The notes beneath the pieces are model-generated. The model was not told where the DNA came from. It did not search any database and saw nothing but the letters and a program-made list of their open reading frames with translations. DNA of 24,895 nucleotides from IMG/VR virus record IMGVR_UViG_3300017772_000117, positions 1 through 24,895 of that record; one strand, written 5' to 3'. The DNA comes from a virus. Shown here in pieces: positions 9,868 through 23,806 of the stretch. How positions within the stretch are numbered: position 1 is the stretch's first letter; each line of letters begins with the position of its first letter. Position numbers and translations under genes: made by a program.

Positions 9868-9897
9868 GTTGACATTAATGTAAACAACAGGCAAGAT
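9868..9897 (+). promoter_or_regulatory. Promoter/operator copy A (reversed cassette)
   Basis: TTGACA at 9869-9874, 17 bases, CAAGAT at 9892-9897. The -35 box is embedded in an 18-bp near-perfect palindrome, GTTGACATTAATGTAAAC (9868-9885), with only one mismatched pair. The leader from 9903 to the ATG at 9932 (ACATTCAAAAAAACAAAGGG and TTATACAC) is nearly identical to those of two other loci on the minus strand. The element thus combines a sigma70-type promoter with a likely repressor site. Confidence 0.75.
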
Positions 9898-9931
9898 GCT
9901 CCTACATTCAAAAAAACAAAGGGTTATACAC

Positions 9932-10213
9932 ATGACTAACTTAACTTCAAATCAAAAAGCGGCTCTTGCAGTGTTTCACGAATACATTGAAAACGAATCA
10001 GATTTTGAGTGGGGCGATTACTTCTGGATAGCCGACCTGCTTACACTGCTTGTAGACAATGGCTGGGAGCGTAAAAGCGCGGAAGGCACAATAGGCAGTC
10101 TGCTCGAATCAGGCGGCAGTGATTTGTACGCTTTTGAAAATACGCCAAACCCACAAAAAGGCGACCAAAAAGAAATGCTCTACATTGTCGAATACAAGCC
10201 AAGCTGGGCATAA
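9932..10213 (+). CDS. Hypothetical protein, first gene of the reversed cassette
   Basis: 93 residues from ATG 9932. This start is chosen because AAAGGG lies just upstream and the same leader precedes two other genes; an in-frame ATG at 9896 lies inside the promoter. Sequence begins MTNLTSNQKAALAVFHEYIE and is acidic, with several Trp/Tyr (FEWGDYFWIADLLTLLVDNG) and a helical segment AEGTIGSLLESGG. I do not recognise the family. It is one of only two plus-strand genes, driven by promoter A, between minor head and scaffold genes. This is the behaviour of a moron: an accessory gene with its own control. Confidence 0.8.
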   Translation: MTNLTSNQKAALAVFHEYIENESDFEWGDYFWIADLLTLLVDNGWERKSAEGTIGSLLESGGSDLYAFENTPNPQKGDQKEMLYIVEYKPSWA

Positions 10214-10223
10214 TAAACCAACC

Positions 10224-10239
10224 GCCCCCGAAAGGGGGC
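10224..10239 (+). promoter_or_regulatory. GC hairpin (GAAA tetraloop) in the leader of the second cassette gene
   Basis: GCCCCC-GAAA-GGGGGC, a perfect 6-bp stem with a GNRA tetraloop, 17 bases before the ATG at 10257. No T-run follows, so it is not a normal terminator. It is followed by CTACCCTTGGAGGGG, in which CCC and GGG could also pair around the Shine-Dalgarno. A closely similar hairpin plus CTATCCCTTGGAGGGG precedes the gene at 17841. Possible roles are mRNA stabilisation or tuning of second-gene expression. Confidence 0.6.
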
Positions 10240-10256
10240 TACCCTTGGAGGGGATT

Positions 10257-10589
10257 ATGAATATTTTAAAACCAGCACCGCAGACGCTAGACGAAGCCCA
10301 CGACCAATACTGTGACGACAATCACCTTGGTAGCTTCGAGATGCTAACCCAGCGCGAGTACGACGAAGTCCGTAGGCAAGAGAAAGCCAAAGGCTTGATT
10401 ATATTCGAGGGCGATTATGTAACGCTGACAGGCGAACCAGAATGGCTCGAAGTTGTAGAGATTGTTATTGTGGACGGCAACCGCGCCAACAATATGCTCA
10501 AGCTCTCAGATGGCTATGTAGTGCCAGCACCAGTTGAGCGTTATGTTGACGAAGTGATTTCTAAGAAAGAGTTTATAGCCCTATCCTAA
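10257..10589 (+). CDS. Hypothetical protein, second gene of the reversed cassette
   Basis: 110 residues from ATG 10257, with GGAGGGG three bases upstream; the frame is open further upstream but without a comparable ribosome site. Sequence starts MNILKPAPQTLDEAHDQYCD, continues with a charged helix (REYDEVRRQEKAKGL) and then a beta-rich region (IIFEGDYVTLTGEP, VVEIVIVDGNRANNMLKLSDGY in pieces) that suggests a small SH3-like barrel. Family not recognised. It is co-transcribed with the 93-residue gene and followed by a strong terminator. Confidence 0.8.
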   Translation: MNILKPAPQTLDEAHDQYCDDNHLGSFEMLTQREYDEVRRQEKAKGLIIFEGDYVTLTGEPEWLEVVEIVIVDGNRANNMLKLSDGYVVPAPVERYVDEVISKKEFIALS

Positions 10590-10609
10590 TTGCAGCAGTG
10601 TAACCCTTT

Positions 10610-10639
10610 AGCCCAGCTTATTTAGTGGGCTTTTTTTTC
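10610..10639 (+). terminator. Intrinsic terminator of the reversed cassette
   Basis: Stem AGCCCA (10610-10615) with TGGGCT (10626-10631), a 10-base loop and a run of eight T. It lies 20 bases after the stop of the plus-strand gene. The minus-strand reading has no T-run, so it stops only plus-strand transcription and prevents it from running into the head genes. Confidence 0.85.
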
Positions 10640-10662
10640 TTCTTCTTTTTACCGTATGCCAT
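10618..10662 (-). CDS. 14-residue lysine-rich micro-ORF after the minor head gene
   Basis: Reads MAYGKKKKKKKPTK, starting one base after the minor-head stop (TAA C ATG), with GAGGA five bases upstream inside the preceding gene. The stop lies inside the loop of the plus-strand terminator. Short basic MAYGKKK-type peptides are encoded at this kind of position in other phages, as far as I recall. Seven consecutive lysines would suit binding to DNA or to the acidic capsid interior. It could also be chance sequence opposite the T-run. Confidence 0.5.
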   Translation of the reverse strand: MAYGKKKKKKKPTK

Positions 10663-10663
10663 G

Positions 10664-11545
10664 TTATTCCTCGTCAAATACTGGTCGCCAGTGGTGTCGG
10701 CAGTTATAGCCGCCGCGTACAATCAATGGGTCGCCAGATGATTTGCCTTTCCAGCTTCCCGCCCAAGTGTCTGCAATTTCTTCTTCAGTAAATACCTGTC
10801 CAGCGTGTTTGCGGCAGAATGGTCTACTGTCCCTAATAACATCTCCATAATACTTCCACTTGGTCGCACCGCTTTGGATACCGATAGCTGTGTTTATAGA
10901 TGCGTCGAACTGCATCAGGCTGTCTTGTGCCATTTGTGTAGCGTAACGTCTTAGGTTGTTCCCTGCCCTGTCTCTGGCGAACTTGGTGCGTAATAGCTCT
11001 GCCGCATCTTTAGACTGTGCCGCTGTGCCGTTATTAACTAAGTCAACAAGCCGCTGGGCTTCTACATCGTCGCTCTGGATATACACGCCGTTGATTGTCT
11101 GGCGTAGGTTCTTAACGGTGTCGTTAAAGCTACGGCCTGTCAGGGTTGACTGGTAGACCTCGGTGGCTAGGGTGTCCAAATACTCGTTGGCAACAGCCTC
11201 AAAGCCTTGGAAAGATAACCGCTGCAACTGGTTAATCGTTGCAGAATCTATCTTAGTAAAGTCGCCATACGTTGAGAGCATATCCTGCGCATCAACTGCG
11301 ACAGAGCCGTACCCTCTAACAATGCCGTCCACTTCAGACAGATAAGCATCGTCCATTGCTTCTTTAAGGGCTGGCCTTGCATTGATAGCCCACTCAGTAT
11401 CAAAGAGCTTGCCACCCTGTAGCGGAGCGTCAGCCATAACATCAACTACGCGCTCCTCTAAGGTCACTAGGGCATCGGCTAGGCGTTGCTGATGGGTATC
11501 AGCCAGCTTATCCAATATCTCGTCATACTGGTTATCTGTAGGCAT
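10664..11545 (-). CDS. Minor head / head morphogenesis protein (Mu gpF / SPP1 gp7-like)
   Basis: 293 residues. Long helical N-terminal part with coiled-coil character, then SLMQFDASINTAIGIQSGATKWKYYGD (in pieces), DSRPFCRKHAGQVFTEEEI and GDPLIVRGGYNCRHHWRPVF. The Cys/His set (C-R-K-H and Y-N-C-R-H-H) at the C-terminus is the hallmark of the phage Mu protein F-like family. These proteins bind the portal and enter the prohead in a few copies. TAATG overlap with the portal gene indicates coupled translation. Confidence 0.87.
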   Translation of the reverse strand: MPTDNQYDEILDKLADTHQQRLADALVTLEERVVDVMADAPLQGGKLFDTEWAINARPALKEAMDDAYLSEVDGIVRGYGSVAVDAQDMLSTYGDFTKIDSATINQLQRLSFQGFEAVANEYLDTLATEVYQSTLTGRSFNDTVKNLRQTINGVYIQSDDVEAQRLVDLVNNGTAAQSKDAAELLRTKFARDRAGNNLRRYATQMAQDSLMQFDASINTAIGIQSGATKWKYYGDVIRDSRPFCRKHAGQVFTEEEIADTWAGSWKGKSSGDPLIVRGGYNCRHHWRPVFDEE

Positions 11546-12927
11546 TATTCAGCCTCGTCGTTGAACTGCCCTATAACTTGTGTGCCTTGGTCTATCTCAA
11601 GGTGCGACTTCGCCAGCTTCTCATCGTCCAACACTAGGTCGGCAATCTGCTTATCTATTTCTTGCGATAGGGTTACAGACTTCACGCCAGTAGCTCGCAT
11701 CTGCTGCAAGAAGATTAGCTCTTTGTCCATATCGCGAATATCAAAGCTATCAGGGTAAAAGATTTCAACGTCAGGGGTTATCTCTTGGTAATCACACCAA
11801 AGGTTCCAGATCTGCTCCTCAGCAAGCTCCAAGATGTCAGCCTTCTCAGCCAGCTTTGCGTTAAGCATTTGGAACTCTGTCTGCATTGCTACACCAGACT
11901 GCGTGATTGCCTCTGTGCCGCGTACTGCGCCCATGTGTGACATACGATTGATATATTCAATCTTGTCGTTAATAGACGCTCTAACGCTGTCCAGATTAGA
12001 ACCGCTAGGCTGTAACATGTAGGGCTTCATCTGCGCGTCCATATCATCAGGCATATTGATAACCGAACCAGCACCAGCACTTGCATCAGTCTCGTATGAC
12101 TTAACAAGGGTAGGGTGGTTACTGATACGGATAAGCTGCTCTACTTCCGAAAGTTCCTGATAGATAGCCCGCTGCATATAGGCAACGTCTGACAGGTCGC
12201 TAACACCAATGCCGCGAACTACTGAGCGTTGCGCAGGTAGGAACACCGCAGGGATTCTGCCCAGCACGTTTTCTTCTGTGCTGATGTGCGTGTCCTGCTC
12301 GTTAATGCTCTTATAAAGCTCGACCTTATCCTTGTGCCAGCAACGGTAATAAACAACCTTCTCTGTGTCGCTGATTTCCTCGATAGACTCGCGCACCTTC
12401 AAGTAGCAGAGCTCATAGCGGCCTGATGGCATTCGCTCATATTCCCAGTCGAATACATTCTCAGGCGTGAACATGGTCACATAAGGTCTAATGTCCTGCC
12501 CTAGCTCCTCAGCCTTAGTGCGTGCATTAGAAGATGGCTTGTCTACCATAATCCAGACGTTACCGTAAACGCTTGCCCAGATGTTAGCCTCTCGCATAAA
12601 CGCATTGAAGCTGCGACCATCTAGGTCGGCATCTTTCATAAAAGGCTCAATCGCATAGTTACCAGCAGCAGAGTTAAAGCTGCGCACTGGTGGCTGTCGC
12701 CATAAGAAACTGCTGTAGATGTGGACAATGTTCTTGCTGTGGTTGTCCATCGGGGTCAGGTCAAGGCGGCGATTGTATTCGTCCTTGTCCTCATTGATGT
12801 AGCGCGTCAGGTATGCGCCATCGCGGTAATCTTCGCCACCCATATAGCTGCGCAGATAGAACTCCCAGCGATACTTGTTGTTGTCATATTGTGGGTGCGT
12901 GTATTCTAAATCTTTGCTGTAAGCCAT
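11545..12927 (-). CDS. Portal protein
   Basis: 460 residues from ATG 12927 (TAATG overlap with the terminase stop; GGTGGAG just upstream). A start three codons earlier at 12936 is less likely. Portal features include HPQYDNNKYRWEFYLRSYMGG near the N-terminus, DNHSKNIVHIYSSFLWRQPP, the wing/stem region with RGIGVSDLSDVAYMQRAIYQ, and the crown helix ITQSGVAMQTEFQMLNAKLA. Twelve copies would form the DNA-entry ring at the capsid vertex and dock terminase. Position between terminase and minor head gene is standard. Confidence 0.9.
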   Translation of the reverse strand: MAYSKDLEYTHPQYDNNKYRWEFYLRSYMGGEDYRDGAYLTRYINEDKDEYNRRLDLTPMDNHSKNIVHIYSSFLWRQPPVRSFNSAAGNYAIEPFMKDADLDGRSFNAFMREANIWASVYGNVWIMVDKPSSNARTKAEELGQDIRPYVTMFTPENVFDWEYERMPSGRYELCYLKVRESIEEISDTEKVVYYRCWHKDKVELYKSINEQDTHISTEENVLGRIPAVFLPAQRSVVRGIGVSDLSDVAYMQRAIYQELSEVEQLIRISNHPTLVKSYETDASAGAGSVINMPDDMDAQMKPYMLQPSGSNLDSVRASINDKIEYINRMSHMGAVRGTEAITQSGVAMQTEFQMLNAKLAEKADILELAEEQIWNLWCDYQEITPDVEIFYPDSFDIRDMDKELIFLQQMRATGVKSVTLSQEIDKQIADLVLDDEKLAKSHLEIDQGTQVIGQFNDEAE

Positions 12928-14138
12928 TAACTCCACCGTCTAGGTTGTTCAACTATTCGCTCTGTGCGTACTGGGAATAGGTATTCTACCAGATAGCCTA
13001 GAGCATCATTCATGTGGTCAAATCCGTCCTTATTAGGAACGCTTGTACCTTCTTTGTAGGTCTGGCGTTCTAAGGATTCGATTGTCTGTTTACACTTGGG
13101 GTCTATCAACAACTTCCGCTGACCATCGCTTGATAGTAGTCTGGAGTTGACCGCATTTATTCTGTCTCGAACCAGTGCGTGTCTGGTCTTAGCCTTAACC
13201 TCAAAACCTGCGTTTTGAAGAATGCTTAAATCTGTGCGCCCACCTGCGCTCGTCTTTCTCTGGCGTGAAGCTGGGTCGGGGTAAATGATAACACGTTTGT
13301 CAGGGTAGCGCGTTCGCAATTCCTGCGCCATCTCGTCGGTGTTGCTGCCCCACATAACTACCTCATCAATCGCCAGCAGTGTGTCATGGTGTCGGACACA
13401 AACAACCGCACTCATAGGGTCAAGGTTGAAGTCCATGCCAACGTGCAGCGTGTGGTGGTCTGCCTCTATCTTGCCAACCGATTCTTCTCGGCTAAAGCCG
13501 TAGTAGATGATGCCGCTGTAGTTTACAAACTGCGCGTTATATTCCTGATTAAAGGTGCGCTCGTCTAGGTCTTGCTGGGCTTGCTCTATCTCTGTCTGCG
13601 GTACGTTACCGCCTTGGATAGTGGTGTACTGAAAGCTCTGCCAATCATCATCACCGTCTAGCCCTTTGCTGTATAGGTCATAGAAGTGGTTGCGACCTTT
13701 AGGTGTACCGATAAACAGAGCAGAACCTAACCTGTCAGATAGCGATGGTCTGATAACCTCATACCAAGCCTCGGGGCGCATATCTGCAAACTCATCAAGC
13801 ACAACAAAGTCTAAAGCTCGGCCTCGCAGGTTGTTAGGCTTCTCTGCTCCTTTAAGGCTAATAGTGCTGCCGTTAATCAGGCGCATCGTTAGGCTGCTTT
13901 CGTTTGTCTTGGTTAGGTACTCAGGGGGAATGGTCTGTGTAAGCATATCCCAAGCAATGTCTTTAGCAGAGCCGTAGGTCGGTGCTACATACCAGCAGTT
14001 CTTATTCTTACCTGATGTGGCTGCTCGCAGTATCTCGCCAGTGCTAAGGAATGTCTTGCCGAATCGCCGCCCAGCAACAACGCTACGGAAACGGCTAGAG
14101 CTACAAAATATTTCACTCTGTGGCAGGGTCAGTTGCAC
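12927..14138 (-). CDS. terL: Terminase large subunit
   Basis: 403 residues with GTG start at 14138, inside the end of terS; the frame is closed by a TAG three codons upstream. ATPase: Walker A GRRFGKT (23-29), Walker B VVLDE (112-116), coupling motif GTPKG (144-148). RNase H-like nuclease: GMDFN with Asp236, YPDP with Asp288 and DHMNDALGY with Asp374/Asp378. All key residues are present, so the packaging motor should be active. 403 residues is slightly short for the family but complete. It translocates DNA into the prohead and cuts the concatemer. Confidence 0.95.
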   Translation of the reverse strand: MQLTLPQSEIFCSSSRFRSVVAGRRFGKTFLSTGEILRAATSGKNKNCWYVAPTYGSAKDIAWDMLTQTIPPEYLTKTNESSLTMRLINGSTISLKGAEKPNNLRGRALDFVVLDEFADMRPEAWYEVIRPSLSDRLGSALFIGTPKGRNHFYDLYSKGLDGDDDWQSFQYTTIQGGNVPQTEIEQAQQDLDERTFNQEYNAQFVNYSGIIYYGFSREESVGKIEADHHTLHVGMDFNLDPMSAVVCVRHHDTLLAIDEVVMWGSNTDEMAQELRTRYPDKRVIIYPDPASRQRKTSAGGRTDLSILQNAGFEVKAKTRHALVRDRINAVNSRLLSSDGQRKLLIDPKCKQTIESLERQTYKEGTSVPNKDGFDHMNDALGYLVEYLFPVRTERIVEQPRRWS

Positions 14139-14493
14139 GATGGTCTACCACTATATTGATTGGGGGAATCTCTTGCGCTTCTGCCTCGGTTTCTCTCCAG
14201 CCACCTTGTGTCTTTAGGTAAAAGATATTCGCCGTTACGTTGCCGCCCTTAGCCATCTGGATTAAGTTGCTGCCCATGCTTGCGACTTGTTTGACTCTGC
14301 CCTTTTTATAAGCCTCAGAAACTTCAGGCTGTCGCTTCTCTATCTCACGCAAGGTGTTTTCGCAGATGCCAAAGTAATCCGCTACTTGCCCTTTAGTGAG
14401 TACAGCAGACAATGCCTGTAGTTCTATTATCTGCTCTGGCGTTAGCTCAACAGGTGGTCGCCCACCCCCATCGCCTTGATTGCCTTGCTTCAT
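14113..14493 (-). CDS. terS: Terminase small subunit
   Basis: 126 residues. A Gly-rich basic start (GNQGDGGGRPP) is followed by LTPEQIIELQALSAVLTKGQ and a helix-turn-helix VADYFGICENTLREIEKRQP, then AYKKGRVKQVASMGSNLIQM and the phrase ANIFYLKTQGGWRE, typical of small terminases. It recognises packaging sites on DNA and oligomerises to regulate TerL. The start overlaps the stop of the Mom-like gene (ATGA) and the end overlaps terL by 26 bases. Confidence 0.88.
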   Translation of the reverse strand: MKQGNQGDGGGRPPVELTPEQIIELQALSAVLTKGQVADYFGICENTLREIEKRQPEVSEAYKKGRVKQVASMGSNLIQMAKGGNVTANIFYLKTQGGWRETEAEAQEIPPINIVVDHRATDPATE

Positions 14494-15191
14494 AGATTAT
14501 CACTTGATTGGAGCGTACAGGTCGGAGTTGCACCGCCCAGACTAGAGGGGTTCTCTAGCTCCTGCTCTTTTGTACGCTTTGGGTAGGGTTTACACAAGTG
14601 GAGTATAGACTGTTTAGTTTCTTTGTCTAGTGGCATCAAATATCTATGCTTACCTTTAGTGTAAAAAACTGTCGCATTAGGGTCTAGATGTTTTCTAACT
14701 TCAGCTATGCTTTGCTTAACCCCTTTGCTGTGAACTGATTTTGGATGTGTTTTCTTTCCATGAATAATAAAAGCCCCCATAGTCCCTGCATTCATCAACC
14801 CACTATAAATCCAGTTAGTTGCTTGATAGATGCCACCATGATGATTTTGGTCAGCGTCAGCATAACTAACAACCAATTTTAATCCTGAATTAGATTTTTT
14901 CAAAAATTTAATAGCCAATGCCATTATCTTGCTAACTGGTGTCTTGTGTTTAGTTAATGCAATTCTTACCAGTTCACAGCCTTGGTCTGCTTTTAAGCCA
15001 AATGGTTTTAGCATATTGTTATTAGCACCCCTACCGAATAAAACAACGCCTATATATTTTCCATCTTCCCAAGCACCAACTTTGACAAGTTTGCCAACAG
15101 GAATTACACCACTATAGTGCCAATTCTCACAAGCGTACTTAGCAGCTTCATGTGACGCCCAATCTATTCTTATATTAGCTTTGTCTGACAT
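14490..15191 (-). CDS. mom: Mom-like DNA modification protein (adenine modification)
   Basis: 233 residues. Strong family signals: KYACENWHYSGVIPVGKLVK (residues about 18-37), YIGVVLFGRGANNNMLKPFG, CELVRIALTKHKTPVSKI, LVVSYADADQNHHGGIYQAT then NWIYSG, and late GKHRYLMPLD and KPYPKR. These are the conserved blocks of phage Mu Mom, a GNAT-fold protein that makes carbamoylmethyl-adenine and protects phage DNA from restriction enzymes. No Com translational activator is seen next to it; an unknown 68-residue gene and a ParB-like gene precede it instead. The family call is firm; the exact modification here is inferred. Confidence 0.88.
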   Translation of the reverse strand: MSDKANIRIDWASHEAAKYACENWHYSGVIPVGKLVKVGAWEDGKYIGVVLFGRGANNNMLKPFGLKADQGCELVRIALTKHKTPVSKIMALAIKFLKKSNSGLKLVVSYADADQNHHGGIYQATNWIYSGLMNAGTMGAFIIHGKKTHPKSVHSKGVKQSIAEVRKHLDPNATVFYTKGKHRYLMPLDKETKQSILHLCKPYPKRTKEQELENPSSLGGATPTCTLQSSDNL

Positions 15192-15381
15192 TCTGGACTC
15201 TATTCCCCCATCTAGAATTAAGGGATTCGATAATTTGGCTTATATCAGCACCCTGCATATTTATCATTTGTACATTTTTGCCGTCAAGCTCAAAAGTATA
15301 TTTTTTTATTTTCGTGCCAGTTTTTTCAGTATCAAACCTGCTAAGAATATTTTTGTTTTTCTGCTCATTAGATATGCTCAT
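15175..15381 (-). CDS. Hypothetical protein between ParB-like and Mom genes
   Basis: 68 residues. Starts MSISNEQKNKNILSRFDTEK, then a beta-hairpin KKYTFELDGKNVQMINMQGA and a helix ISQIIESLNSRWGNRV. Basic N-terminal half. Not recognised. AAGGAG lies six bases before the ATG, the start overlaps the ParB-like stop (ATGA), and its end overlaps the Mom start by 17 bases, so the three genes are translationally linked. Could be a partner or regulator of Mom, by context only. Confidence 0.7.
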   Translation of the reverse strand: MSISNEQKNKNILSRFDTEKTGTKIKKYTFELDGKNVQMINMQGADISQIIESLNSRWGNRVQNVRQS

Positions 15382-16150: not shown

Positions 16151-16180
16151 ATTAACCTCCGCAGGCTAACAGTTTGGTTG

Positions 16181-16437: not shown

Positions 16438-16656
16438 CTAGTCGATAATTATTATAATCAGGGCTAGTAATATGGCAAGGCCATTGCTTGCAGGCTCAAC
16501 AAATAGCCAGTTGCGTATTCTACCAAACGGCTCGTCACCTAATAACTTATACAGCCTTTCCTCAACCGCCCACTCAATCTTTTTTCCAAGGCTTCTGTCT
16601 GCCGTTTTGTGGGCATCTTTAATCATGGCTTCAACTTCTTCTTTGCTTACTGGCAT
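16438..16656 (-). CDS. Small C-terminally anchored membrane protein
   Basis: 72 residues. Residues 1-55 are charged and helical (MPVSKEEVEAMIKDAHKTAD, KKIEWAVEERLYKLLGDEPF); residues 56-72 (ASNGLAILLALIIIIID) form one hydrophobic segment ending at the C-terminus, so it is tail-anchored or inserted post-translationally. Family not recognised. It overlaps the end of the secreted repeat protein by 10 bases. A lysis-accessory or exclusion role is possible from its membrane nature, but unproven. Confidence 0.7.
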   Translation of the reverse strand: MPVSKEEVEAMIKDAHKTADRSLGKKIEWAVEERLYKLLGDEPFGRIRNWLFVEPASNGLAILLALIIIIID

Positions 16657-17006
16657 CGTGTTGTCCCCCAGTAGTCAGTCTTGCAGCTTGTTCCGTCACT
16701 GTAGCGAGTTGTTCCCCAAGCGTCTGTCTTAGACGTTGTGCCATCGTTAAAGCGGGTAGTTCCCCAGCTATCAGTTTTCCAGCTAGAGCCGTCAGAGCCG
16801 CGTGTAGTACCCCAAGAGTCTGTCTTGTAGGTTGTGCCAGTGCGTGAATCCCTAATAGTTCCCCAGCTATCTTTAGTTAGCGTTCCGCTAGTGCCGCCGC
16901 AGTTGTAGCGAGTGTTGCCCCAGCTATCAGTTTTTGATGTGCAGGTTGCGTTTGCACCCGCAGATAGTGCGCTTACAGTCAGCGCGATTAGTGCGTATTT
17001 CTTCAT
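16647..17006 (-). CDS. Secreted protein with six WG repeats (KTDSWGTTR type)
   Basis: 119 residues from ATG 17006 (AAGGAG eight bases upstream, preferred over a GTG three codons earlier). Residues 1-20, MKKYALIALTVSALSAGANA, are a classical signal peptide with an ANA cleavage site. The mature part is about six imperfect repeats of 16-19 residues, best copies KTDSWGTTRGSDGSSW, KTDSWGTTRFNDGTTS and KTDAWGTTRYSDGTSC. Four cysteines could form disulfides in the periplasm. I do not know the function. Repeats also show at DNA level, so expansion or contraction by recombination is possible. Confidence 0.8.
   Translation of the reverse strand: MKKYALIALTVSALSAGANATCTSKTDSWGNTRYNCGGTSGTLTKDSWGTIRDSRTGTTYKTDSWGTTRGSDGSSWKTDSWGTTRFNDGTTSKTDAWGTTRYSDGTSCKTDYWGTTRCQ
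16668..16945 (-). repeat. Tandem repeats inside the secreted protein gene
   Basis: About six units of 48-57 bases, each carrying a CCCCA-type core on the plus strand (gttccccagctatcag, gttccccaagcgtctg, taccccaagagtctg) that encodes DSWG. The three central units are 48 bases and the most alike. Variation between units is mostly in the loop codons after TTR. Confidence 0.75.
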
Positions 17007-17028
17007 TGTTTCCACTCCTTCAGTTAGT

Positions 17029-17490: not shown

Positions 17491-17841
17491 TTATTGACCT
17501 CTCTCATATCCGGCAAATGGCTCTGCTTTCATGTGCGCTTCGCAGAAGTGGTCTTGCACTTTTTCGCGCAATGCTTCTTCAGCATCTAGGTATATAAAAC
17601 ACTTCAGCAACTGTGAAGCATCGTCTGTACCGTCAGTGTAGAGAATCTCTAAATACTCTAACTGGGTCTCTCGGCCTACAATACAAGCTGGCAAACAATC
17701 ATCTAGCCAGCTTGGATATGCCTTCAACCACTCATAACAAAGAAGGTCTTTGTCATCTTCTGTCAGGTCGATAATGTCGCCGTCCCAGTCTTGGTATTTG
17801 TTGTGAAAATCTTCAATAAGAAATTTGATTTCGCTTTTCAT
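17491..17841 (-). CDS. Hypothetical acidic protein, second gene after promoter B
   Basis: 116 residues from ATG 17841, six bases after GGAGGGG; a TTG at 17856 lies inside the ribosome site and is rejected. Begins MKSEIKFLIEDFHNKYQDWD, very acidic (DGDIIDLTEDDKDLLCYEWL), with FIYLDAEEALREKVQDHF near the C-terminus. No known motif. Preceded by hairpin 17863-17876 and a CTATCCCTTGGAGGGG leader nearly the same as that of the plus-strand gene at 10257. Confidence 0.78.
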   Translation of the reverse strand: MKSEIKFLIEDFHNKYQDWDGDIIDLTEDDKDLLCYEWLKAYPSWLDDCLPACIVGRETQLEYLEILYTDGTDDASQLLKCFIYLDAEEALREKVQDHFCEAHMKAEPFAGYERGQ

Positions 17842-17862
17842 TTGCTTCCCCTCCAAGGGATA

Positions 17863-17876: not shown

Positions 17877-17883
17877 AGTTCGT

Positions 17884-18069
17884 TTAGCGTGAAAGTGCAA
17901 CTGTGCAGTTGTAGTTGCTGCCAATCTCAAACATTACTTCGTTTGATTCGGCTGGGCTGTCTGCGTACATATCAACCAGCAGCTTGAGACCGTAGTAATC
18001 AACAGAGCCATCTTTTTCCATCATAGAGTTGGCGCGTTTTGTAGCATAATTAAGTAGTGAATTGTTCAT
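17884..18069 (-). CDS. Hypothetical protein, first gene after promoter B
   Basis: 61 residues: MNNSLLNYATKRANSMMEKD, then GSVDYYGLKLLVDMYADSPA and ESNEVMFEIGSNYNCTVALSR. Likely a small helical protein. Its ATG ends the shared leader (CAAAGGGTTACAAACATG), which supports the start. Family not recognised. Confidence 0.75.
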   Translation of the reverse strand: MNNSLLNYATKRANSMMEKDGSVDYYGLKLLVDMYADSPAESNEVMFEIGSNYNCTVALSR

Positions 18070-18102
18070 GTTTGTAACCCTTTGTTTTTTGAATGTGTGG
18101 GT

Positions 18103-18132
18103 ACTTTGCCCGATGTTAACGAAACTGTCAAC
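18103..18132 (-). promoter_or_regulatory. Promoter/operator copy B
   Basis: Minus strand TTGACA (18131-18126), 17 bases, CAAAGT (18108-18103). The operator-like half-sites GTTGAC and GTTAAC frame GTTGACAGTTTCGTTAAC (18132-18115). The downstream leader ACACATTCAAAAAACAAAGG matches copies A and C. The -35 box overlaps the ninG stop codon, so this regulated promoter sits at the end of the replication block. Confidence 0.75.
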
Positions 18133-18571
18133 ACTTTATTTCACCTATGCGCCATTCTTCTACTTTTATCTGTTCTTTAAGGTCACGCGCAAAGGCAATA
18201 ACTTCTTCTCGGTCATACCTCTTAGCAGGTCGCCATGCCATACGCTCCATAGCTTTAACCCTGCGCTCGCCGTATGTGTCCACCATGTACTGCCTATAGC
18301 GTAGCACGTAGTGTGCCTGTTTCATGCCCCAGCAGTTACAATGGGGACACTGTGGTTTTATGTTAAATTCCGCTAGTTTAAAAATCGTTCTGTGGCGGGG
18401 TATGAAGTGGCCGCCCTGTAGGTTTTTGTAGTGGTCTACCTTGTCGCAGGTAACGCACTGGGCGTAGCCGTTATCATCTGCTGCCTTTAATCGCACCAGC
18501 CGCTGCAAAAGCTTGGCTGCTTTCTCCATCTCCTGCGCGACTGTGGTTTTCTTTCTACCTTTTTTCGCCAT
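18128..18571 (-). CDS. ninG: NinG-like recombination nuclease
   Basis: 147 residues. Basic N-terminus (MAKKGRKKTT), then KLLQRLVRLKAADDNGYAQC, CVTCDKVDHYKNLQGGHFIP with RHRTIF, and CPHCNCWGMKQAHYVLRYRQ, closely following phage lambda NinG (Rap). Cys pairs (C-V-T-C and C-P-H-C) plus GGHFIPR form the HNH-like zinc nuclease site. It resolves recombination intermediates such as D-loops and Holliday-type junctions. The start overlaps DUF3310 by 17 bases. Confidence 0.88.
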   Translation of the reverse strand: MAKKGRKKTTVAQEMEKAAKLLQRLVRLKAADDNGYAQCVTCDKVDHYKNLQGGHFIPRHRTIFKLAEFNIKPQCPHCNCWGMKQAHYVLRYRQYMVDTYGERRVKAMERMAWRPAKRYDREEVIAFARDLKEQIKVEEWRIGEIKC

Positions 18572-18767
18572 ATTCCAGCTCTAGTAATAGTTCGCAATAG
18601 TGAATGGCTTTCCGAATGTCCTCAGCTCCATTCTTGCTGCCATGCCTTGTGATGTATTTAACCACGTTGCCCTCGCAGTAGTCTAAGCTGTTTTTGTAGA
18701 TGTACTCGATTGGCTGTATAGCTAACTGGTAATGGCTGCCGCCTGTCTGTTTATCAAGTGCGCTCAA
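18555..18767 (-). CDS. DUF3310 protein
   Basis: 70 residues. GGSHYQLAIQPIEYIYKNSL, then DYCEGNVVKYITRHGSKNGA and EDIRKAIHYCELLLELE match the whole DUF3310 domain (HY-x-IQP, EGN-VKY-TR, KNG-eD-rKA-hY). The domain is common in phages, alone or in nucleotide kinases such as T7 gp1.7; its own activity is not settled. Overlaps the zinc-ribbon gene (ATGA) and ninG. Confidence 0.85.
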   Translation of the reverse strand: MSALDKQTGGSHYQLAIQPIEYIYKNSLDYCEGNVVKYITRHGSKNGAEDIRKAIHYCELLLELEYGEKR

Positions 18768-18946
18768 TGTTCCGTCTCCTCAGTAGATAAATCAATTTCA
18801 TCAGGTATGTTAAGGTCGCAGCTAGGACATAGACCATAAGCAGAATCATCATCGCCAAGCCAATAAGTAAGAGGCTGTTGACATTCCTCGCAATAGACTC
18901 TAACCAATTTAATAGACCTTTTAGGAAAATTAACAACTTTACTCAC
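18764..18946 (-). CDS. Small zinc-ribbon protein
   Basis: 60 residues with two Cys pairs, YCEEC (about 18-22) and LCPSC (39-43), an arrangement for one zinc ion. Acidic C-terminus (PDEIDLSTEETEH). Chosen over a hydrophobic frame at 18754-18936 because its start and stop make ATGA overlaps with both neighbours and the Cys spacing is meaningful. Role unknown; perhaps a nucleic-acid or protein adaptor in the replication block. Confidence 0.7.
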   Translation of the reverse strand: MSKVVNFPKRSIKLVRVYCEECQQPLTYWLGDDDSAYGLCPSCDLNIPDEIDLSTEETEH

Positions 18947-20112
18947 CCCTCCACCTTTATTTTTACCCGCGAATCTTCACCGCTATCTTTGTGATAAACC
19001 ACTGCCGTCATAGAACGTTCTGCCCCATAACCTGAATCACTATGCCACTGGTCTGTCGCCGTTAAACTGCCCCAGTGTTCAAAGTGCATAGAGCCAACCT
19101 CTCTGGCGGTGTGGTGATGTATATGCCCCAGATGACAATAGCGGTTCTTTGACTCTGCCCATTCATCGTCTAGGTTCTTAATCACCGTCTGTAGAATTTG
19201 CTCGTGCTTTATGCGGTCGCCATGGTGGAAAACAAATAGATTGTTGTGCCACTGGTAGGATATAAACTTGCTGTAGTTCTGCACAATCTCAACCCTCGGC
19301 TCTTTGCTGTAAAGCAGCTCTAGGCAGCTAGATAGGTGGCAAGCCATATCATAATCGTGATTGCCGCGCACATTAACCACAACTACTTTCTCATGGGTCT
19401 GTAGCATCTTGTCGATTAGCACATTAAACAGCCTGCCTGCCAGCTTAAAGGTCTTACCGATGCGCGTGTCTACGTCTACCGGCGTTCCCTTTGTAGTGGT
19501 GTTAGAGCTGCTGTCAGCGTGAAAAAAATCACCTACGTTAAGCAGAACACCAGTGCCAGCGTTTCCAACTCGATTTGCCAGCCTGTCGGTTGTGTCAATT
19601 AGTATCTGGGTTGCAATCTTTGTGTCCCAATCATCGTCATCAACCTTCGATTCTGAATCCGCGAGCATTCCCATGTGATGGTCGCCCACCATGTACATTG
19701 CGAGATAGTCATCGCGCACTTCAGTGGGGGCAGGAACAGGCTTTTTAAAGCCATCTAAATCTTCTTTTACGCCCTCAATCATAAGGTCTAGGCGTTCTTT
19801 TAGGCTCTGCTTTTGCGGCTCTTGGATAACCCATTGCAGGGCTACTGTGCCATCTTCTTTGTATGCTGTAGATACGCGCTTGGCATCAAAGCCCTCGGCG
19901 GTCTGGTGAACTAAGTCGCGATGCGGTGCGACTCCTTTGGCTGCGGCATATCCTTCAATGCGCTTTAGGGTCTTATCAACTCCGCGCCTGTTTAGTCCCA
20001 GTGCTGCGGCTGCTTTAACATTTGAGCCATGCTCGATAATTGCGTTTAGAACTCTTGTCTGTGCTTCGCTTCGTGCAAACTCCAATAAACTGCGGGGGTC
20101 AACTCTGTCCAT
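18943..20112 (-). CDS. HTH-metallophosphoesterase (Mre11/SbcD-like nuclease fold)
   Basis: 389 residues. N-terminal helix-turn-helix near 28-52 (SNVKAAAALGLNRRGVDKTL). Calcineurin-like phosphoesterase from about 135: GDHH (143-146), GDFFH (194-198), GNHD (250-253), HHGD (296-299), GHIHHH (329-334), so all metal ligands are present. Such HTH-phosphoesterases occur in phage replication blocks and probably act on DNA ends or branched DNA, but the substrate is not established. Overlaps its neighbours by one and four bases. Confidence 0.87.
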   Translation of the reverse strand: MDRVDPRSLLEFARSEAQTRVLNAIIEHGSNVKAAAALGLNRRGVDKTLKRIEGYAAAKGVAPHRDLVHQTAEGFDAKRVSTAYKEDGTVALQWVIQEPQKQSLKERLDLMIEGVKEDLDGFKKPVPAPTEVRDDYLAMYMVGDHHMGMLADSESKVDDDDWDTKIATQILIDTTDRLANRVGNAGTGVLLNVGDFFHADSSSNTTTKGTPVDVDTRIGKTFKLAGRLFNVLIDKMLQTHEKVVVVNVRGNHDYDMACHLSSCLELLYSKEPRVEIVQNYSKFISYQWHNNLFVFHHGDRIKHEQILQTVIKNLDDEWAESKNRYCHLGHIHHHTAREVGSMHFEHWGSLTATDQWHSDSGYGAERSMTAVVYHKDSGEDSRVKIKVEG

Positions 20113-20558
20113 TACTTCACCTGTTGTAGTTGTAGTTTCCTATATTCGCTTTCTGGGTCAATCTGTAACGTGTAACCAAGGTCAAAAGCCCAGCTATGCA
20201 CCTCAGTTAAAAAGTGGTGCATCTCGCCGCTGTCTAGTTTGCTAGTGTGTCGCAACTGGTTCTCAATAACGGTCTTGCCAACCTTTATTGATTCTGTGCC
20301 TAGAAACTTCTGCTTGAGTAGTAGTTTAACATTTTCGGGGGTGTAGGTAGGGTCGCGCTCTATAACCCATGCGGATAGCTCTCTGCACCAAGCATGGAAC
20401 ATAGCGTTCTGTGAAGTTGTGCGGGGGTTGCGGTAAGGCTTTAAGGTAATGGCGCAGGGCTTTGTGTAGTCCCAAACCTTTAGGCGGTCAGCGATGTAAC
20501 CAAGCCGAACTTCAATCTCGTCGGCTTGGAACACCTTAACTGTATCGCCTTGGCTCAA
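20112..20558 (-). CDS. ninB: NinB-like recombination mediator
   Basis: 148 residues, TTG start at 20558 overlapping the previous stop (TTGA); no better start is visible. KPYRNPRTTSQNAMFHAWCR corresponds to the R-s-x-Q-N block of lambda NinB/Orf, and TSKLDSGEMHHFLTEVHSWA to its C-terminal block. NinB binds SSB-coated DNA and helps load annealing proteins. Together with NinG and ERF it forms a lambdoid-style recombination set. Similarity is partial, so the call is moderate. Confidence 0.65.
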   Translation of the reverse strand: MSQGDTVKVFQADEIEVRLGYIADRLKVWDYTKPCAITLKPYRNPRTTSQNAMFHAWCRELSAWVIERDPTYTPENVKLLLKQKFLGTESIKVGKTVIENQLRHTSKLDSGEMHHFLTEVHSWAFDLGYTLQIDPESEYRKLQLQQVK

Positions 20559-20857
20559 ACCAAAGCCTTAGCAAGCCATTGTTGGCTCATTATAGTTTCT
20601 GCTGATTCTAGCCTTGTCTCAAACGGCTTATCGGCATTGTTGTTATATGCTGCCTTAGCCACTCTCAGGTCGTAGTCAGTGATTATCTTGCACTGCTTAG
20701 CGCGTAGTCTGCTGTGCAGGGTCTTTGCATTGATACCCGCTACTTCAGCCATGTGCGGCAGTGTGTATTTTTCGCCGTTTTTTAGCCCGCCCTTTTTGCC
20801 AGCAAACAAGTATTTCTTTGGCGTTTTTCCTGCATCTCTGCGTCTATCGTTATGCAC
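20555..20857 (-). CDS. Hypothetical protein with helix-turn-helix-like segment
   Basis: 100 residues, GTG start at 20857 with GGAGG six bases upstream, overlapping the previous stop. Basic N-terminus (DRRRDAGKTPKKYLF), then EKYTLPHMAEVAGINAKTLH and SRLRAKQ, which reads as a helix-turn-helix recognition region. C-terminal half unremarkable. Probably DNA-binding, but the family is unknown to me. Confidence 0.7.
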   Translation of the reverse strand: MHNDRRRDAGKTPKKYLFAGKKGGLKNGEKYTLPHMAEVAGINAKTLHSRLRAKQCKIITDYDLRVAKAAYNNNADKPFETRLESAETIMSQQWLAKALV

Positions 20858-21242
20858 GTTTCACCTCCGCGCCACCATCATAGTAGTAGCCATATTTATT
20901 AAGTAAATGCTGCTTCTGTGCTTCGCGCTCTACACCGTCTAGCCATGTAATATCAGTAAGCCCCATCATTATTGACCTGCCGCGTATTGAGTCATCTTGG
21001 TTAACCGCTGGCTTATGGTTAGCAACAAATGGTGAAACACCGCCTGTCTTTTTGGCTCTAGCTAACCAGCTATTTATGAACTTAGGCATTCCAACTTTGG
21101 TTTTGCGCTTTGCCTTGTTTGAGAATAACCACATTCGCATCGCTTCTAGCTCGTCCCTAACCATCTCATCTCCGTAGCTTTTAATCAGCTCTTCGTAAAG
21201 GTCATCAGGGATAGCGTATTCTTCGCCAGTTTTTAAGAGCAT
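20850..21242 (-). CDS. Replication accessory protein (DnaT/DnaD-type C-terminal region)
   Basis: 130 residues from ATG 21242 (GGAG six bases upstream; a frame to 21269 is open but lacks a ribosome site). YAIPDDLYEELIKSYGDEMV, then ELEAMRMWLFSNKAKRKTKV and KFINSWLARAKKTGG match the block found at the end of many phage replication-initiation proteins (d-EL-kMr-WL-sNp-kRkT-Gi-rFInsWL). Here it stands alone. It may help load helicase. The C-terminus (GLTDITWLDGVEREAQKQ) is less known. Confidence 0.65.
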   Translation of the reverse strand: MLLKTGEEYAIPDDLYEELIKSYGDEMVRDELEAMRMWLFSNKAKRKTKVGMPKFINSWLARAKKTGGVSPFVANHKPAVNQDDSIRGRSIMMGLTDITWLDGVEREAQKQHLLNKYGYYYDGGAEVKRA

Positions 21243-21445
21243 GGCAGACTCCAGCGGGCAATAGTGCATTCTTCGTCGAATCTGTTTTTAACAGTGACGT
21301 TTTCTTTTATCAGGTGATGCCCATCGCGCTTCAGGTTATACACTACAGCAGATATTCTGGTTATGCCTAGCTCATGGAAAGCGTCTAGGCTTGTAATGGT
21401 GTTACCACTTCTCAGGTAATCGAGTACACGTTGCTTCTGGTTCAT
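21233..21445 (-). CDS. Helix-turn-helix DNA-binding protein
   Basis: 70 residues from ATG 21445, eight bases after GGAG; an ATG two codons earlier is too close to it. MNQKQRVLDYLRSGNTITSL then DAFHELGITRISAVVYNLKR and DGHHLIKENV is a small winged helix typical of phage early genes. It leads the replication block and overlaps the next gene by ten bases. It may regulate the block or take part in replication initiation. Confidence 0.8.
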   Translation of the reverse strand: MNQKQRVLDYLRSGNTITSLDAFHELGITRISAVVYNLKRDGHHLIKENVTVKNRFDEECTIARWSLPCS

Positions 21446-21451
21446 CTTCAT

Positions 21452-21575
21452 AACTCCTTGGGTTTCCGCTAAAGCGAAAACACGTTTCTTTGAATGGATT
21501 TTTTTTAACTTTATTTTCTTTGAAATACTTTAACCCTTTTTACTTGTCATCAAGTAAATTTTCAAGATAAGAGGG
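21452..21575 (-). other. AT-rich control region before the replication block
   Basis: No gene is seen in this stretch. On the minus strand it holds a candidate promoter (21565-21537), the small inverted repeat ACTTG-ATGA-CAAGT (21557-21544), long A and T runs, and the hairpin GTTTTCGC-TTTA-GCGGAAAC just before the ribosome site of the winged-helix gene. It could be a leader with regulated translation, or part of an origin; neither is proven. Confidence 0.5.
21537..21565 (-). promoter_or_regulatory. Candidate promoter of the replication/recombination block
   Basis: Minus strand TTGAAA (21565-21560; 5 of 6 consensus), 17 bases, TAAAAA (21542-21537; 4 of 6). About 92 bases before the ATG at 21445, in AT-rich sequence. 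Confidence 0.5.
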
Positions 21576-21698
21576 CTAAAGCGACTCCTCGGTAAATTCG
21601 TTATCGTATCGAATATTTAATCTATCCGTCTGCCAGTACCGACCGGCATCAGGGGCTATATCAAGAGGGTCAACTTGGTCTTTGGGGTTTAATTTCAA
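21576..21698 (-). CDS. Possible 40-residue protein with TTG start
   Basis: Frame from TTG 21698 to TAG 21576; GGGGA lies about five bases before the TTG. An upstream in-frame TTG at 21710 would add four residues. Reads (M)KLNPKDQVDPLDIAPDAGRY then WQTDRLNIRYDNEFTEESL. Composition is protein-like, and W-x-T-D-R-L-N-I-x-Y-D resembles the DRLNI block of I78-type peptidase inhibitors, though I am not sure of homology. It lies alone between the XRE gene and the replication block. Confidence 0.42.
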   Translation of the reverse strand: MKLNPKDQVDPLDIAPDAGRYWQTDRLNIRYDNEFTEESL

Positions 21699-21775
21699 AT
21701 GGTTCCCCAACCTCTAGCCCGACAACATTTTTATTCTATTAAATTGTAAGCCTGTTTGTAAACACAAAACAGGAA

Positions 21776-21982
21776 CTATTTTCCTAGATTCAAAAAATCA
21801 GCTATTTCTACACCCAGCACGTTGCAAATGCTTTGCATGGTGTGCAGCTTCATGTTTGGCTGCGCTCTCCAGCGTATAACCTGCTGTGGGCTTGTCTTAG
21901 CGATTCTAGATAATTCTGCGTTAGATATACCTGCATTAGCTTGCGCGGCTCTAACGGCCTTTCCTGCGTCTATAAGTTGCAT
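21776..21982 (-). CDS. Small XRE-family HTH regulator (repressor candidate)
   Basis: 68 residues. AVRAAQANAGISNAELSRIA then KTSPQQVIRWRAQPNMKLHT and MQSICNVLGVEIADFLNL: a complete Cro/CI-type HTH with recognition helix SPQQVIRWRAQ and the usual L-x-x-I-x-x-x-L-G end. GGTGAG eight bases before ATG. With no C-terminal dimerisation domain it is Cro-like in size. The best candidate in the window to bind the three-copy operator, but no binding is shown. Downstream CCTGTTT/AAACAGG hairpin (21751-21773) could be a weak terminator. Confidence 0.85.
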   Translation of the reverse strand: MQLIDAGKAVRAAQANAGISNAELSRIAKTSPQQVIRWRAQPNMKLHTMQSICNVLGVEIADFLNLGK

Positions 21983-22046
21983 ATTATAATCTCACCTGTG
22001 GTATATTGTTAATGACCGACTAGCGTTGGTCTTTCTCCTGTTGGTT

Positions 22047-22064
22047 GCCCCCCGCGAGGGGGGC
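22047..22064 (-). promoter_or_regulatory. GC hairpin between the SSB-like gene and the XRE gene
   Basis: Minus strand GCCCCCC-TCGC-GGGGGGC, 7-bp stem, nine bases after the SSB-like stop, with no T-run (AACCAACAGGAG follows). Fourth member of the hairpin family seen at 10224, 17863 and 23476. May protect the upstream mRNA or pause transcription before the regulator. Confidence 0.55.
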
Positions 22065-22073
22065 ATTTAACTC

Positions 22074-22343
22074 TTAAAACGGTATATCTTCATCGAACTC
22101 GGCAGTCTTGGGCTGTACTGCTTTCTGTGCTTGCGCCATGCCTTGCTGCTGGGCTTCATCTTTTGCGCTGAACTTCAGGCTCATGTACTTAGTGCCTGTC
22201 TTGCTGGTATTAACCCAGCCGCTTACCCAGTATTCTTTGCCGTCAATTAACGCGCTACCTTTGCGGTCAGGGTGTGTCTCCGACTCTTTCTTGTCGTTTA
22301 CAAACATCGCGCCGCTGTTATCTTTCTGCTCGTATGTACTCAT
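22074..22343 (-). CDS. Single-stranded DNA-binding-like protein (DUF736-type)
   Basis: 89 residues. Core GSALIDGKEYWVSGWVNTSK then TGTKYMSLKF is the short OB-like pattern of DUF736-type phage proteins. A Gln/Lys linker leads to the acidic end EFDEDIPF, the same kind of tip (D-D-I-P-F) through which bacterial SSB recruits partners. Lies 12 bases after ERF, so it likely works with the annealing protein. Shorter than a classical SSB (about 170), so the SSB role is inferred. Confidence 0.65.
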   Translation of the reverse strand: MSTYEQKDNSGAMFVNDKKESETHPDRKGSALIDGKEYWVSGWVNTSKTGTKYMSLKFSAKDEAQQQGMAQAQKAVQPKTAEFDEDIPF

Positions 22344-22355
22344 TTTCTTCTCCAG

Positions 22356-22991
22356 TTATTGTGCTGTTCTAAATTCAGGGGTTTTCATTGTGGCGCGTTC
22401 TTGGGTAGTGAATACGCCGCCTTTGCTTGGTGCTTTCCAGAGTAGTTGCTTCTCTGTGTCGCTCAACTCTTTCCACGCTTCGTTCGCTGTAGACAGGTCG
22501 CCAGTTGCCAGACCGTCCTTGATAGCCTTAACGCTTGGCATCAGGTCGATAATGGAATCTTCATAGCTTTCCTGCTCGGCTTTCTTAACTGCCTTGTCGC
22601 TTCTTAGCATTGCCGCTTCTGCATCGTCGTCCACTTGCGGGATTCCAGCCATGGCAGCAAGTCCATACCGTCTTGCGTAACTAATACAAGAGCCGCCCGC
22701 CTGTGGGTCTCGCTTAACCATCGGCAGTAGAAACTCTTGCTCTAACCACTGACCAGATGTGTGCATCAGTCTGGTTGCTACGCCCACGCTGTTCTCGGTA
22801 CTAACTGGGAACTGCACATAGCTCAGGCCATTAGCTGCAAACGGCTCCTTAACAACCTGCATAACGTCTGACAGGTTCGCATATTTGGATTTAAAGAAAG
22901 GGTTGCCAGTGCCTTTAACAGCACCCCCCATTACGGCTTGCGCTTTGCATAAAGCTGTAGCCAGTTCGTTGATTGATTCGCTTGAAAACAT
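22356..22991 (-). CDS. erf: ERF-family single-strand annealing protein
   Basis: 211 residues. ELATALCKAQAVMGGAVKGT, NPFFKSKYANLSDVMQVVKE, GLSYVQFPVSTENSVGVATR, LMHTSGQWLEQEFLLPM, and the block AGGSCISYARRYGLAAMAGI with PQVDDDAE are the complete ERF core. ERF promotes annealing for recombination and genome circularisation. C-terminal 80 residues are a charged, variable region. AGGAG five bases before ATG. Part of the operon of promoter C. Confidence 0.92.
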   Translation of the reverse strand: MFSSESINELATALCKAQAVMGGAVKGTGNPFFKSKYANLSDVMQVVKEPFAANGLSYVQFPVSTENSVGVATRLMHTSGQWLEQEFLLPMVKRDPQAGGSCISYARRYGLAAMAGIPQVDDDAEAAMLRSDKAVKKAEQESYEDSIIDLMPSVKAIKDGLATGDLSTANEAWKELSDTEKQLLWKAPSKGGVFTTQERATMKTPEFRTAQ

Positions 22992-23021
22992 AATAGCTCC
23001 TATTGTTGGATAGTGATTATA

Positions 23022-23213
23022 CTAAAAGGTTGATGATGCGGTAACACTTTTGTCAGGGTCTGCGCAGTTAGCAGAATCGCATTCCCCCTGAGCGTAAAGT
23101 GCGGCGTATGCGTGATAGTATTCTTCTGGCATATCTTCGCGGCATGGATTGTGCATGGCGTAGTCTTTCTCTGCCAGCTCGTAAAAGTAATTATTAAAAT
23201 CTGCGGTAAACAT
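23022..23213 (-). CDS. Hypothetical protein
   Basis: 63 residues: MFTADFNNYFYELAEKDYAM, then HNPCREDMPEEYYHAYAALY and AQGECDSANCADPDKSVTAS. Rich in Tyr and acidic residues, three Cys. Good ribosome site (AGGAGG, four bases, ATG). Not recognised; lies just before ERF. Confidence 0.7.
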   Translation of the reverse strand: MFTADFNNYFYELAEKDYAMHNPCREDMPEEYYHAYAALYAQGECDSANCADPDKSVTASSTF

Positions 23214-23221
23214 AAAGCCTC

Positions 23222-23461
23222 CTATTGCTCTGTGCGTTTAACAAACAATTCAACAGCATCTTCAATCTTCATGCCGTTGGTGGTTATTTCTTTGACTTCA
23301 TCGCCTGACATATCGGCTTTCGGAAATACAATTCTCCATCGCTCTAGCATTCCTCGGCGCAAATACCCTGCGGTCTTTTTGTTTAGAACTGACACAACCG
23401 CGCCTGAGCCTACGCGCTCAATCTTGAATGTGTCACCCTTGCTGTTTTTCTTGGTGTGCAT
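23222..23461 (-). CDS. Hypothetical protein, second gene after promoter C
   Basis: 79 residues: basic N-terminus MHTKKNSKGDTFKIERVGSG, a strand-rich part AVVSVLNKKTAGYLRRGMLE and a helical end MKIEDAVELFVKRTEQ. AGGAGG four bases before ATG, preceded by the UUCG hairpin at 23476. Unknown family. Confidence 0.72.
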   Translation of the reverse strand: MHTKKNSKGDTFKIERVGSGAVVSVLNKKTAGYLRRGMLERWRIVFPKADMSGDEVKEITTNGMKIEDAVELFVKRTEQ

Positions 23462-23475
23462 ACTGCCTCCTGAAT

Positions 23476-23489
23476 GCCCCCGAAGGGGC
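23476..23489 (-). promoter_or_regulatory. GC hairpin (UUCG tetraloop) before the second gene of promoter C unit
   Basis: Minus strand GCCCC-TTCG-GGGGC, identical in all 14 bases to 17863-17876. It stands between the 81- and 79-residue genes and is followed by ATTCAGGAGGCAGTATG, with no T-run. Same place in the unit as the hairpins of units A and B. Confidence 0.65.
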
Positions 23490-23496
23490 GTTGAAA

Positions 23497-23742
23497 TTAA
23501 ATTGCTTCGATACGTTGGCGGCCTAATTTTTCGTACATTCTGTCGGTGAGGTCATTGCCAAGGTCAACGGTTCGCATAACGTCTGGGCGGTCTGTGTATT
23601 CTGTGCCTTCAGATATTGATTTAGTTACTGTAAATTCAATCACGCTGTTGCAAATGCTAGTAATTAAGCCCTCAACGTAGCAATCAGTGCGTGAAACAAA
23701 GTCGTAGCTGCGAATTTTTTGTCCAATTTGAAAAGTAGTCAT
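23497..23742 (-). CDS. Hypothetical protein, first gene after promoter C
   Basis: 81 residues: MTTFQIGQKIRSYDFVSRTD, CYVEGLITSICNSVIEFTVT, then a charged helical end DLTDRMYEKLGRQRIEAI. The first half looks like a small beta barrel (F-x-x-G-x-x-I-x-S-Y-D-F). Start confirmed by the shared leader (ACAGGGCTACACACATG). Function unknown. Confidence 0.77.
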   Translation of the reverse strand: MTTFQIGQKIRSYDFVSRTDCYVEGLITSICNSVIEFTVTKSISEGTEYTDRPDVMRTVDLGNDLTDRMYEKLGRQRIEAI

Positions 23743-23776
23743 GTGTGTAGCCCTGTTGTTTTTTGAATGTGTGGTT

Positions 23777-23806
23777 ATAGTGCCTGACGTTTACATTTAT
23801 GTCAAC
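23777..23806 (-). promoter_or_regulatory. Promoter/operator copy C
   Basis: Minus strand TTGACA (23805-23800), 17 bases, CACTAT (23782-23777). Near-palindrome GTTGACATAAATGTAAAC (23806-23789), 16 of 18 bases the same as copy A. Leader ACACATTCAAAAAACAACAG follows. Starts right after the lysis terminator, so it opens the early operon. Confidence 0.78.

Follow-up and report, generated by a model that had tools for sequence, protein, structure and literature searches.

The IMG/VR virus record IMGVR_UViG_3300017772_000117, a 24.9-kb virus fragment that we analysed in its entirety (24,895 nt; hereafter the window), carries three copies of a promoter/operator/leader module, at sites that we designate A, B and C. 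The copies align from a shared AGTG to the start codon of the following gene, with the A-run of the leader differing in length by one base. In each copy a TTKACA −35 box, a spacer and a −10 box show sigma-70 geometry; the spacer is 17 bp in every aligned copy, within the 16–18 bp usual between such hexamers. The parts of the three copies are:

9867..9886 (+): site A operator dyad TGTTGACATTAATGTAAACA, enclosing the −35 box TTGACA (9869-9874); 18/20 self-complementary
9892..9897 (+): site A −10 box CAAGAT, 17 bp from the −35 box
9904..9931 (+): site A leader ACATTCAAAAAAACAAAGGGTTATACAC; predicted mRNA 5' end 9904, ATG at 9932
18114..18133 (−): site B operator dyad TGTTGACAGTTTCGTTAACA, enclosing the −35 box (18131-18126)
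18103..18108 (−): site B −10 box CAAAGT, 17-bp spacing
18070..18096 (−): site B leader; predicted mRNA 5' end 18096, ATG at 18069
23788..23807 (−): site C operator dyad TGTTGACATAAATGTAAACG, enclosing the −35 box (23805-23800)
23777..23782 (−): site C −10 box CACTAT, 17-bp spacing
23743..23770 (−): site C leader; predicted mRNA 5' end 23770, ATG at 23742

Querying the window with copy A returned exactly these three sites (E 5e-30, 8e-10 and 2e-7), and self-BLAST of the window gave no further repeat at E<0.01. When the 70-nt regions upstream of 45 window genes were compared in all 990 pairs, the module copies took ranks 1–3 (scores 63, 58 and 58), against a mean of 13.2 (sd 2.6) for the remaining pairs. 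Ranks 4 and 5 belong to a second repeated element, a hairpin followed by a Shine-Dalgarno sequence, the fourth being 10257 versus 17841. An earlier sequence-only reading had placed the three copies here, and had taken them for a repeated control element that comparable likeness between unrelated intergenic regions would speak against. Reading and aligning all three copies confirmed the positions, and the low scores of the other pairs leave no such likeness in the record. Boxes of this kind are common to all sigma-70 promoters, but here the likeness extends across spacer and leader, and diverged relatives keep three copies at the same three sites; together with the three-site window search and the 990-pair ranking, this refutes chance promoter similarity or recent local duplication, the probability of which we consider practically nil.

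Related contigs were collected from IMG/VR by portal and leader searches and then scanned with an iterated weight matrix, which recovered 49 distinct extended sequences, amounting to 42 distinct modules; even the best of the shuffled controls stayed far under threshold. Several loci share a contig; counts take distinct module/gene combinations only. About 48 such combinations were placed by their neighbouring genes, and all fell at A, B or C. Most longer contigs have two or three of the sites occupied, always in one layout: site A on the opposite strand beside the scaffold gene, site B after NinG, and site C before ERF, SSB and XRE genes. The carriers of the element are a group of uncultured marine phages with the same three genome positions. 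The proposed motif search of related genomes thus returned the module, and the claim that the stretch between operator and start codon is conserved in front of differing proteins was borne out across the clade. The proposal of one phage-specific regulon fares well as to a single element at three sites, though the element is not specific to this phage and occurs throughout the clade. No equivalent repeat was found in distant portal relatives or Pelagibacter phages. Forty matches to a loose pattern in cellular genomes were spread across unrelated phyla and hence taken as chance rather than as prophages. One relative (G001, joined from L092 and L093; 32,313 bp) looks near-complete and circularly permuted; its remaining region shows no obvious integrase among the listed open reading frames (ORFs), for which no profile search was made.

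Only site A heads a separate opposite-strand unit. Behind sites B and C lie long runs of genes on the same strand, the C run including ERF, SSB and XRE and the B run including a family found as second gene (ORF2), a ParB-like gene and terminase. Because these runs include conserved genes, B and C probably serve as promoters of core operons in which an exchangeable accessory gene stands first, and the earlier description of separate accessory units applies to site A but not to the other two.

Across the clade the operator is a 20-bp dyad, TGTTkAC-N6-GTwAAyA, which spans the −35 box and extends into the spacer; in the window it takes the form TGTTGAC-N6-GTwAACA/G and is self-complementary at 18/20 (A), 12/20 (B) and 14/20 (C) positions. 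The near-palindrome reported from the sequence alone is therefore present, but it measures 20 bp rather than 18 and encloses the −35 box instead of trailing it. In a conservation profile of 25 non-redundant modules, where relatedness inflates the values of neighbouring columns as well, the right half-site inside the spacer holds 0.8–1.9 bits per column versus 0.03–0.28 in the adjoining spacer columns, and dyad symmetry is maximal at exactly the 20-bp register. The leader, ACATTCAAAAAACAA, begins 7 nt past the −10 box and is followed by a variable Shine-Dalgarno part and the ATG. It is the most conserved part of the module in relatives (columns 38–48 at 1.3–1.9 bits), and its distance from the −10 box is ordinary sigma-70 geometry, in which transcripts start 5–9 nt past that box, for which reason its first A is predicted to be, and probably is, the mRNA 5' end. 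Promoters of relatives fall into two classes, TTGACA with a weak −10 box (GGCAnnAT) and TTTACA with a good one (TTTAAT, GATAAT), a pairing that looks like balanced promoter strength. The leader ACATTCAAAAAA also occurs with a 17-bp-spaced promoter and no operator in other phages (L193:2108, L256:289, L258 and L267).

The genes behind the modules are a different matter. Surrounding genes are syntenic in relatives, mostly at 50–99% identity, whereas those directly behind the modules are missing or different. The first two genes at each site, and the hairpin between them, lie as follows:

9932..10213 (+): site A ORF1, 93 aa, exchangeable, of no known family
10224..10256 (+): hairpin GCCCCCGAAAGGGGGC and Shine-Dalgarno sequence CCCTTGGAGGGG ahead of site A ORF2
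10257..10589 (+): site A ORF2, 110 aa, in several relatives at 72–96%
17884..18069 (−): site B ORF1, 61 aa, its family also at site C in L079
17842..17876 (−): hairpin GCCCCTTCGGGGGC and Shine-Dalgarno sequence ahead of site B ORF2
17491..17841 (−): site B ORF2, its family (MKQEIK...) directly behind the module in many relatives
23497..23742 (−): site C ORF1, 81 aa, recurring at site A (L112), with a relative at B (L102)
23462..23489 (−): hairpin GCCCCTTCGGGGGC and Shine-Dalgarno sequence ahead of site C ORF2 (23461-23222)

Where the same site carries a different gene, the promoter is 85–100% identical and the ORF is at background (40–54%); where the same gene stands at a different site, the flanks are at background (49–53%), with the leader at 74–96% and the ORF at 68–98%. 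Promoter similarity is predicted by the site label (0/1000 permutations). Three ORF families were seen at more than one site: the gene behind site C of the window is found at site A in L112 (98% identical DNA), the MNNSLL family at B and C, and MxNYWK at A and C. Site A ORF1 has no homologue in 12 related contigs with syntenic neighbours. Behind ORF1 at all three sites, usually about 10 nt after its stop codon, lies a hairpin of the form GCCCC-TTCG/GAAA-GGGGC with a Shine-Dalgarno sequence. Where ORF1 is lacking at site B, so that the ORF2 family comes straight after the module, the hairpin is lacking as well, which marks leader and hairpin as the borders of exchange. By these comparisons, promoter and operator stay with the site, the leader travels with its gene, and it is the gene that is exchanged. 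With small genes trading places behind it from phage to phage and from position to position, the element resembles a common control socket for interchangeable genes. Separating its parts in this way offers a concrete picture of how phages may take up small genes without rewiring their control, and a search for the module becomes a direct route to candidate host-interaction genes in uncultured marine phages. The ORF1 proteins belong to no informative family, with Pfam, PHROG function and PADLOC searches giving no match.

Erf-type recombinases act on short diverged homology (PMC3945230), which makes the phage ERF protein a plausible agent of the exchange. The repeats might then be merely recombination linkers, homologous borders for swaps attached to otherwise ordinary promoters, as exchange does happen between leader and hairpin. 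Linkers, however, need neither a 17-bp spacing of −35 and −10 boxes nor a dyad or compensating box strengths, and promoter alleles remain with their site; we regard this explanation as very improbable.

A candidate reader of the operators is encoded in the window itself, in the same-strand run behind site C, next to a further operator-like promoter and a structured RNA:

21776..21982 (−): XRE/Cro-type helix-turn-helix (HTH) regulator, 68 aa; Pfam HTH_26 (E 2e-8), PHROG transcriptional repressor (2e-5)
21733..21764 (−): site D, degenerate operator-like promoter without leader, TGTTTAC-AAACAG-GCTTACA, with boxes TTTACA/TAGAAT
21517..21729 (−): conserved structured non-coding RNA, directly 3' of the XRE gene

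All related contigs that bear modules and extend over this region contain the XRE gene. Site D lies between this gene and the RNA, and resembles the TTTACA class of the module in this clade; in L212, L233 and L242 it holds a perfect or near-perfect GTTTAC-N6-GTAAAC. Among the loci listed, GTTTAC occurs at site D in 27/45 with an XRE recognition helix of the SPQQV(I/L)RWR type versus 0/16 with other helices, and a significant TGTTTAC-N6-GTAAACA in 16/45 versus 0/16. This co-occurrence of helix type and operator-type promoter favours the Cro-like XRE protein of 68 aa, encoded in the run behind site C, as the likely operator binder. At L193, where the XRE protein has another helix, leader and −10 box are kept and the operator is missing. 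A GC hairpin similar to those behind ORF1 stands ahead of the XRE gene, at 22065-22046. The hairpin/Shine-Dalgarno element, the movement of genes between sites and site D with its RNA are all additions to the earlier sequence-only reading.

Together, these features suggest that the three copies form one phage regulon of sigma-70 promoters set in shared operators, with feedback by the XRE protein and a swappable first ORF, a reading to which we give a probability of roughly 0.6. Host sigma-70 RNA polymerase would read all three sites early in infection; the site C promoter would start the recombination run containing ERF, SSB and the XRE gene, the site B promoter the run after NinG, and site A a short opposite-strand unit. 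XRE protein from the C run, acting in a Cro- or Aca-like manner, would then bind the operators, cover the −35 boxes and shut the promoters in negative feedback, and would also face the related promoter ahead of the structured RNA beside its own gene. The A-rich leader would serve as mRNA 5' end and translation start region. Recombination in the leader upstream and in the hairpin/Shine-Dalgarno sequence downstream may swap the first ORF while leaving promoter and operon undisturbed. Several observations weigh against this reading. The −10 boxes of the window are weak, each with 3/6 consensus bases; not every SPQQ-type XRE neighbour shows the dyad (16/45 significant, among the loci listed); the correlation of XRE and operator owes part of its strength to phylogeny (p 0.007, uncorrected for relatedness); site D of the window has lost most of its right half-site; and, since the record covers 24.9 kb of a genome of roughly 32 kb, a further regulator gene may lie outside it.

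The same regulon could have a different reader, either a regulator of the host, whether repressor or activator, or a second DNA-binding protein of the phage, such as the product of 21233-21451 or one that may be encoded beyond this fragment. XRE binding is argued from sequence co-occurrence, several other small uncharacterised proteins are present, and the operator-like site beside the XRE gene is degenerate in the window. Yet GTTTAC precedes the XRE-linked RNA only in company with the matching helix (the 27/45 versus 0/16 of the loci listed), and XRE is conserved in all related module-bearing contigs covering the region; we consider another reader unlikely, although to be taken seriously. Somewhat less probable still is an element acting mainly at the RNA level, whose leader is read in the mRNA as a translation enhancer or by a phage translational regulator or small RNA, the upstream similarity following merely from a shared promoter. 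That the most conserved part begins where the mRNA should start, is retained at L193 when the operator is lost, and travels with the gene rather than the site would all suit such an element. The dyad half in the promoter spacer, however, is conserved though it has no RNA role, and the 10-nt complement of the leader in the 3' end of the window's XRE gene, a possible antisense pairing, is not conserved among relatives.

Repeated promoter/operator/leader elements in phages are often described without a known binder or purpose. The closest known kind appears to be the ESAS/SAS elements of cluster K mycobacteriophages, in which SigA-like promoters occur together with inverted repeats and with sequences linked to start codons (PMC3203893, PMC11373665); the resemblance is one of working only. 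ESAS/SAS recur in intergenic regions and, like the module, join a promoter spaced at 17–18 bp to an imperfect inverted repeat and a stretch conserved as far as the start codon, and the module likewise sets promoter and upstream inverted repeat before genes of different families. They differ in sequences and hosts. The 13-bp GGGATAGGAGCCC of SAS adjoins the start codon, whereas it is absent there from the window copies, whose leaders read ACATTCAAAAAACAAAGGG...ATG and whose conserved part starts at the presumed mRNA 5' end; and there are 7 ESAS and 11–19 SAS in cluster K as against three fixed sites here. The available text of those reports describes no gene exchange between sites with a hairpin border, and the module has both. 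Gene exchange between fixed slots is the unusual part of this system relative to known repeated phage elements.

The SPBRE operators of Bacillus phage SPbeta resemble the module in that one motif recurs in several phage promoters, and are read by a single phage master repressor, MrpR (PMC10516654). MrpR is a recombinase-fold repressor that maintains lysogeny in a temperate phage, the motif is 15 bp, and the accessible part of that account describes no conserved leader, in contrast to the module. Aca proteins are of 60–79 aa in most families and of HTH_3/XRE types, and AcrIIA1 is an HTH_26 protein (PMC9410906). In Aca-repressed acr promoters the core likewise contains an inverted repeat, and small accessory genes come first, with a small HTH protein encoded downstream; in the module, by contrast, three separate promoters share one operator, and no known anti-CRISPR was recognised at ORF1 by Pfam, PHROG or PADLOC, nor any match to a defence-related model. 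Both systems are established cases of a single phage repressor reading dyads that recur in phage promoters. Judged by its sequence, the module belongs to none of the ESAS/SAS, SPBRE or Aca systems. A phage moron is a single gene that sits within a late operon and has a promoter of its own. The site A gene is moron-like in lying on the opposite strand between structural genes with a predicted promoter of its own, and unlike a moron in that two core operons have the same type of promoter and that the promoter remains in place as the gene changes.

The structured RNA beside the XRE gene was found in at least 79 distinct marine virus loci by a pattern search from the stretch downstream of that gene, and among the matches listed the XRE gene lies just upstream in 74/79. 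Its fold has 43 pairs including a pseudoknot, 21 of them changed on both sides; 98.8% of cells are paired versus 34–43% when the alignment is slid, and double-change cells number 165 versus 44 in shuffles. The model, R1, scores 196 bits. Rfam 15 gave no match, tRNA and tmRNA searches were negative, blastn found none among isolate phages, an exact pattern found none in 398 genomes of one bacterial phylum, and the model had no match in HTVC111P, HTVC112P or DSL-LC06. The RNA is also present in phages without modules and is therefore not needed for the module; the XRE–RNA pair is a separate, testable novelty. We tentatively propose, with the odds somewhat against the full combination, that this marine phage clade has three standard slots, each with the site's promoter/operator and a leader in front and a hairpin/ribosome-binding sequence at the back, through which small genes are shuffled between phages and slots, with every slot controlled by one Cro-like protein that is fixed beside a previously undescribed structured RNA. 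A degenerate copy of the leader, CATTCAAAgAAAC, stands 3' of the RNA at 21482-21497 (−), ahead of gene 21451, and also at L036:1908; it is clearer in G001 and G003.

Two further genes lie between sites A and B. The product of 14490-15191 (−), absent from the compared relatives, resembles Mom-type DNA-modification proteins by eye, and 16647-17015 (−) encodes a small protein that has repeated DSWGTTR units and an apparent signal peptide.

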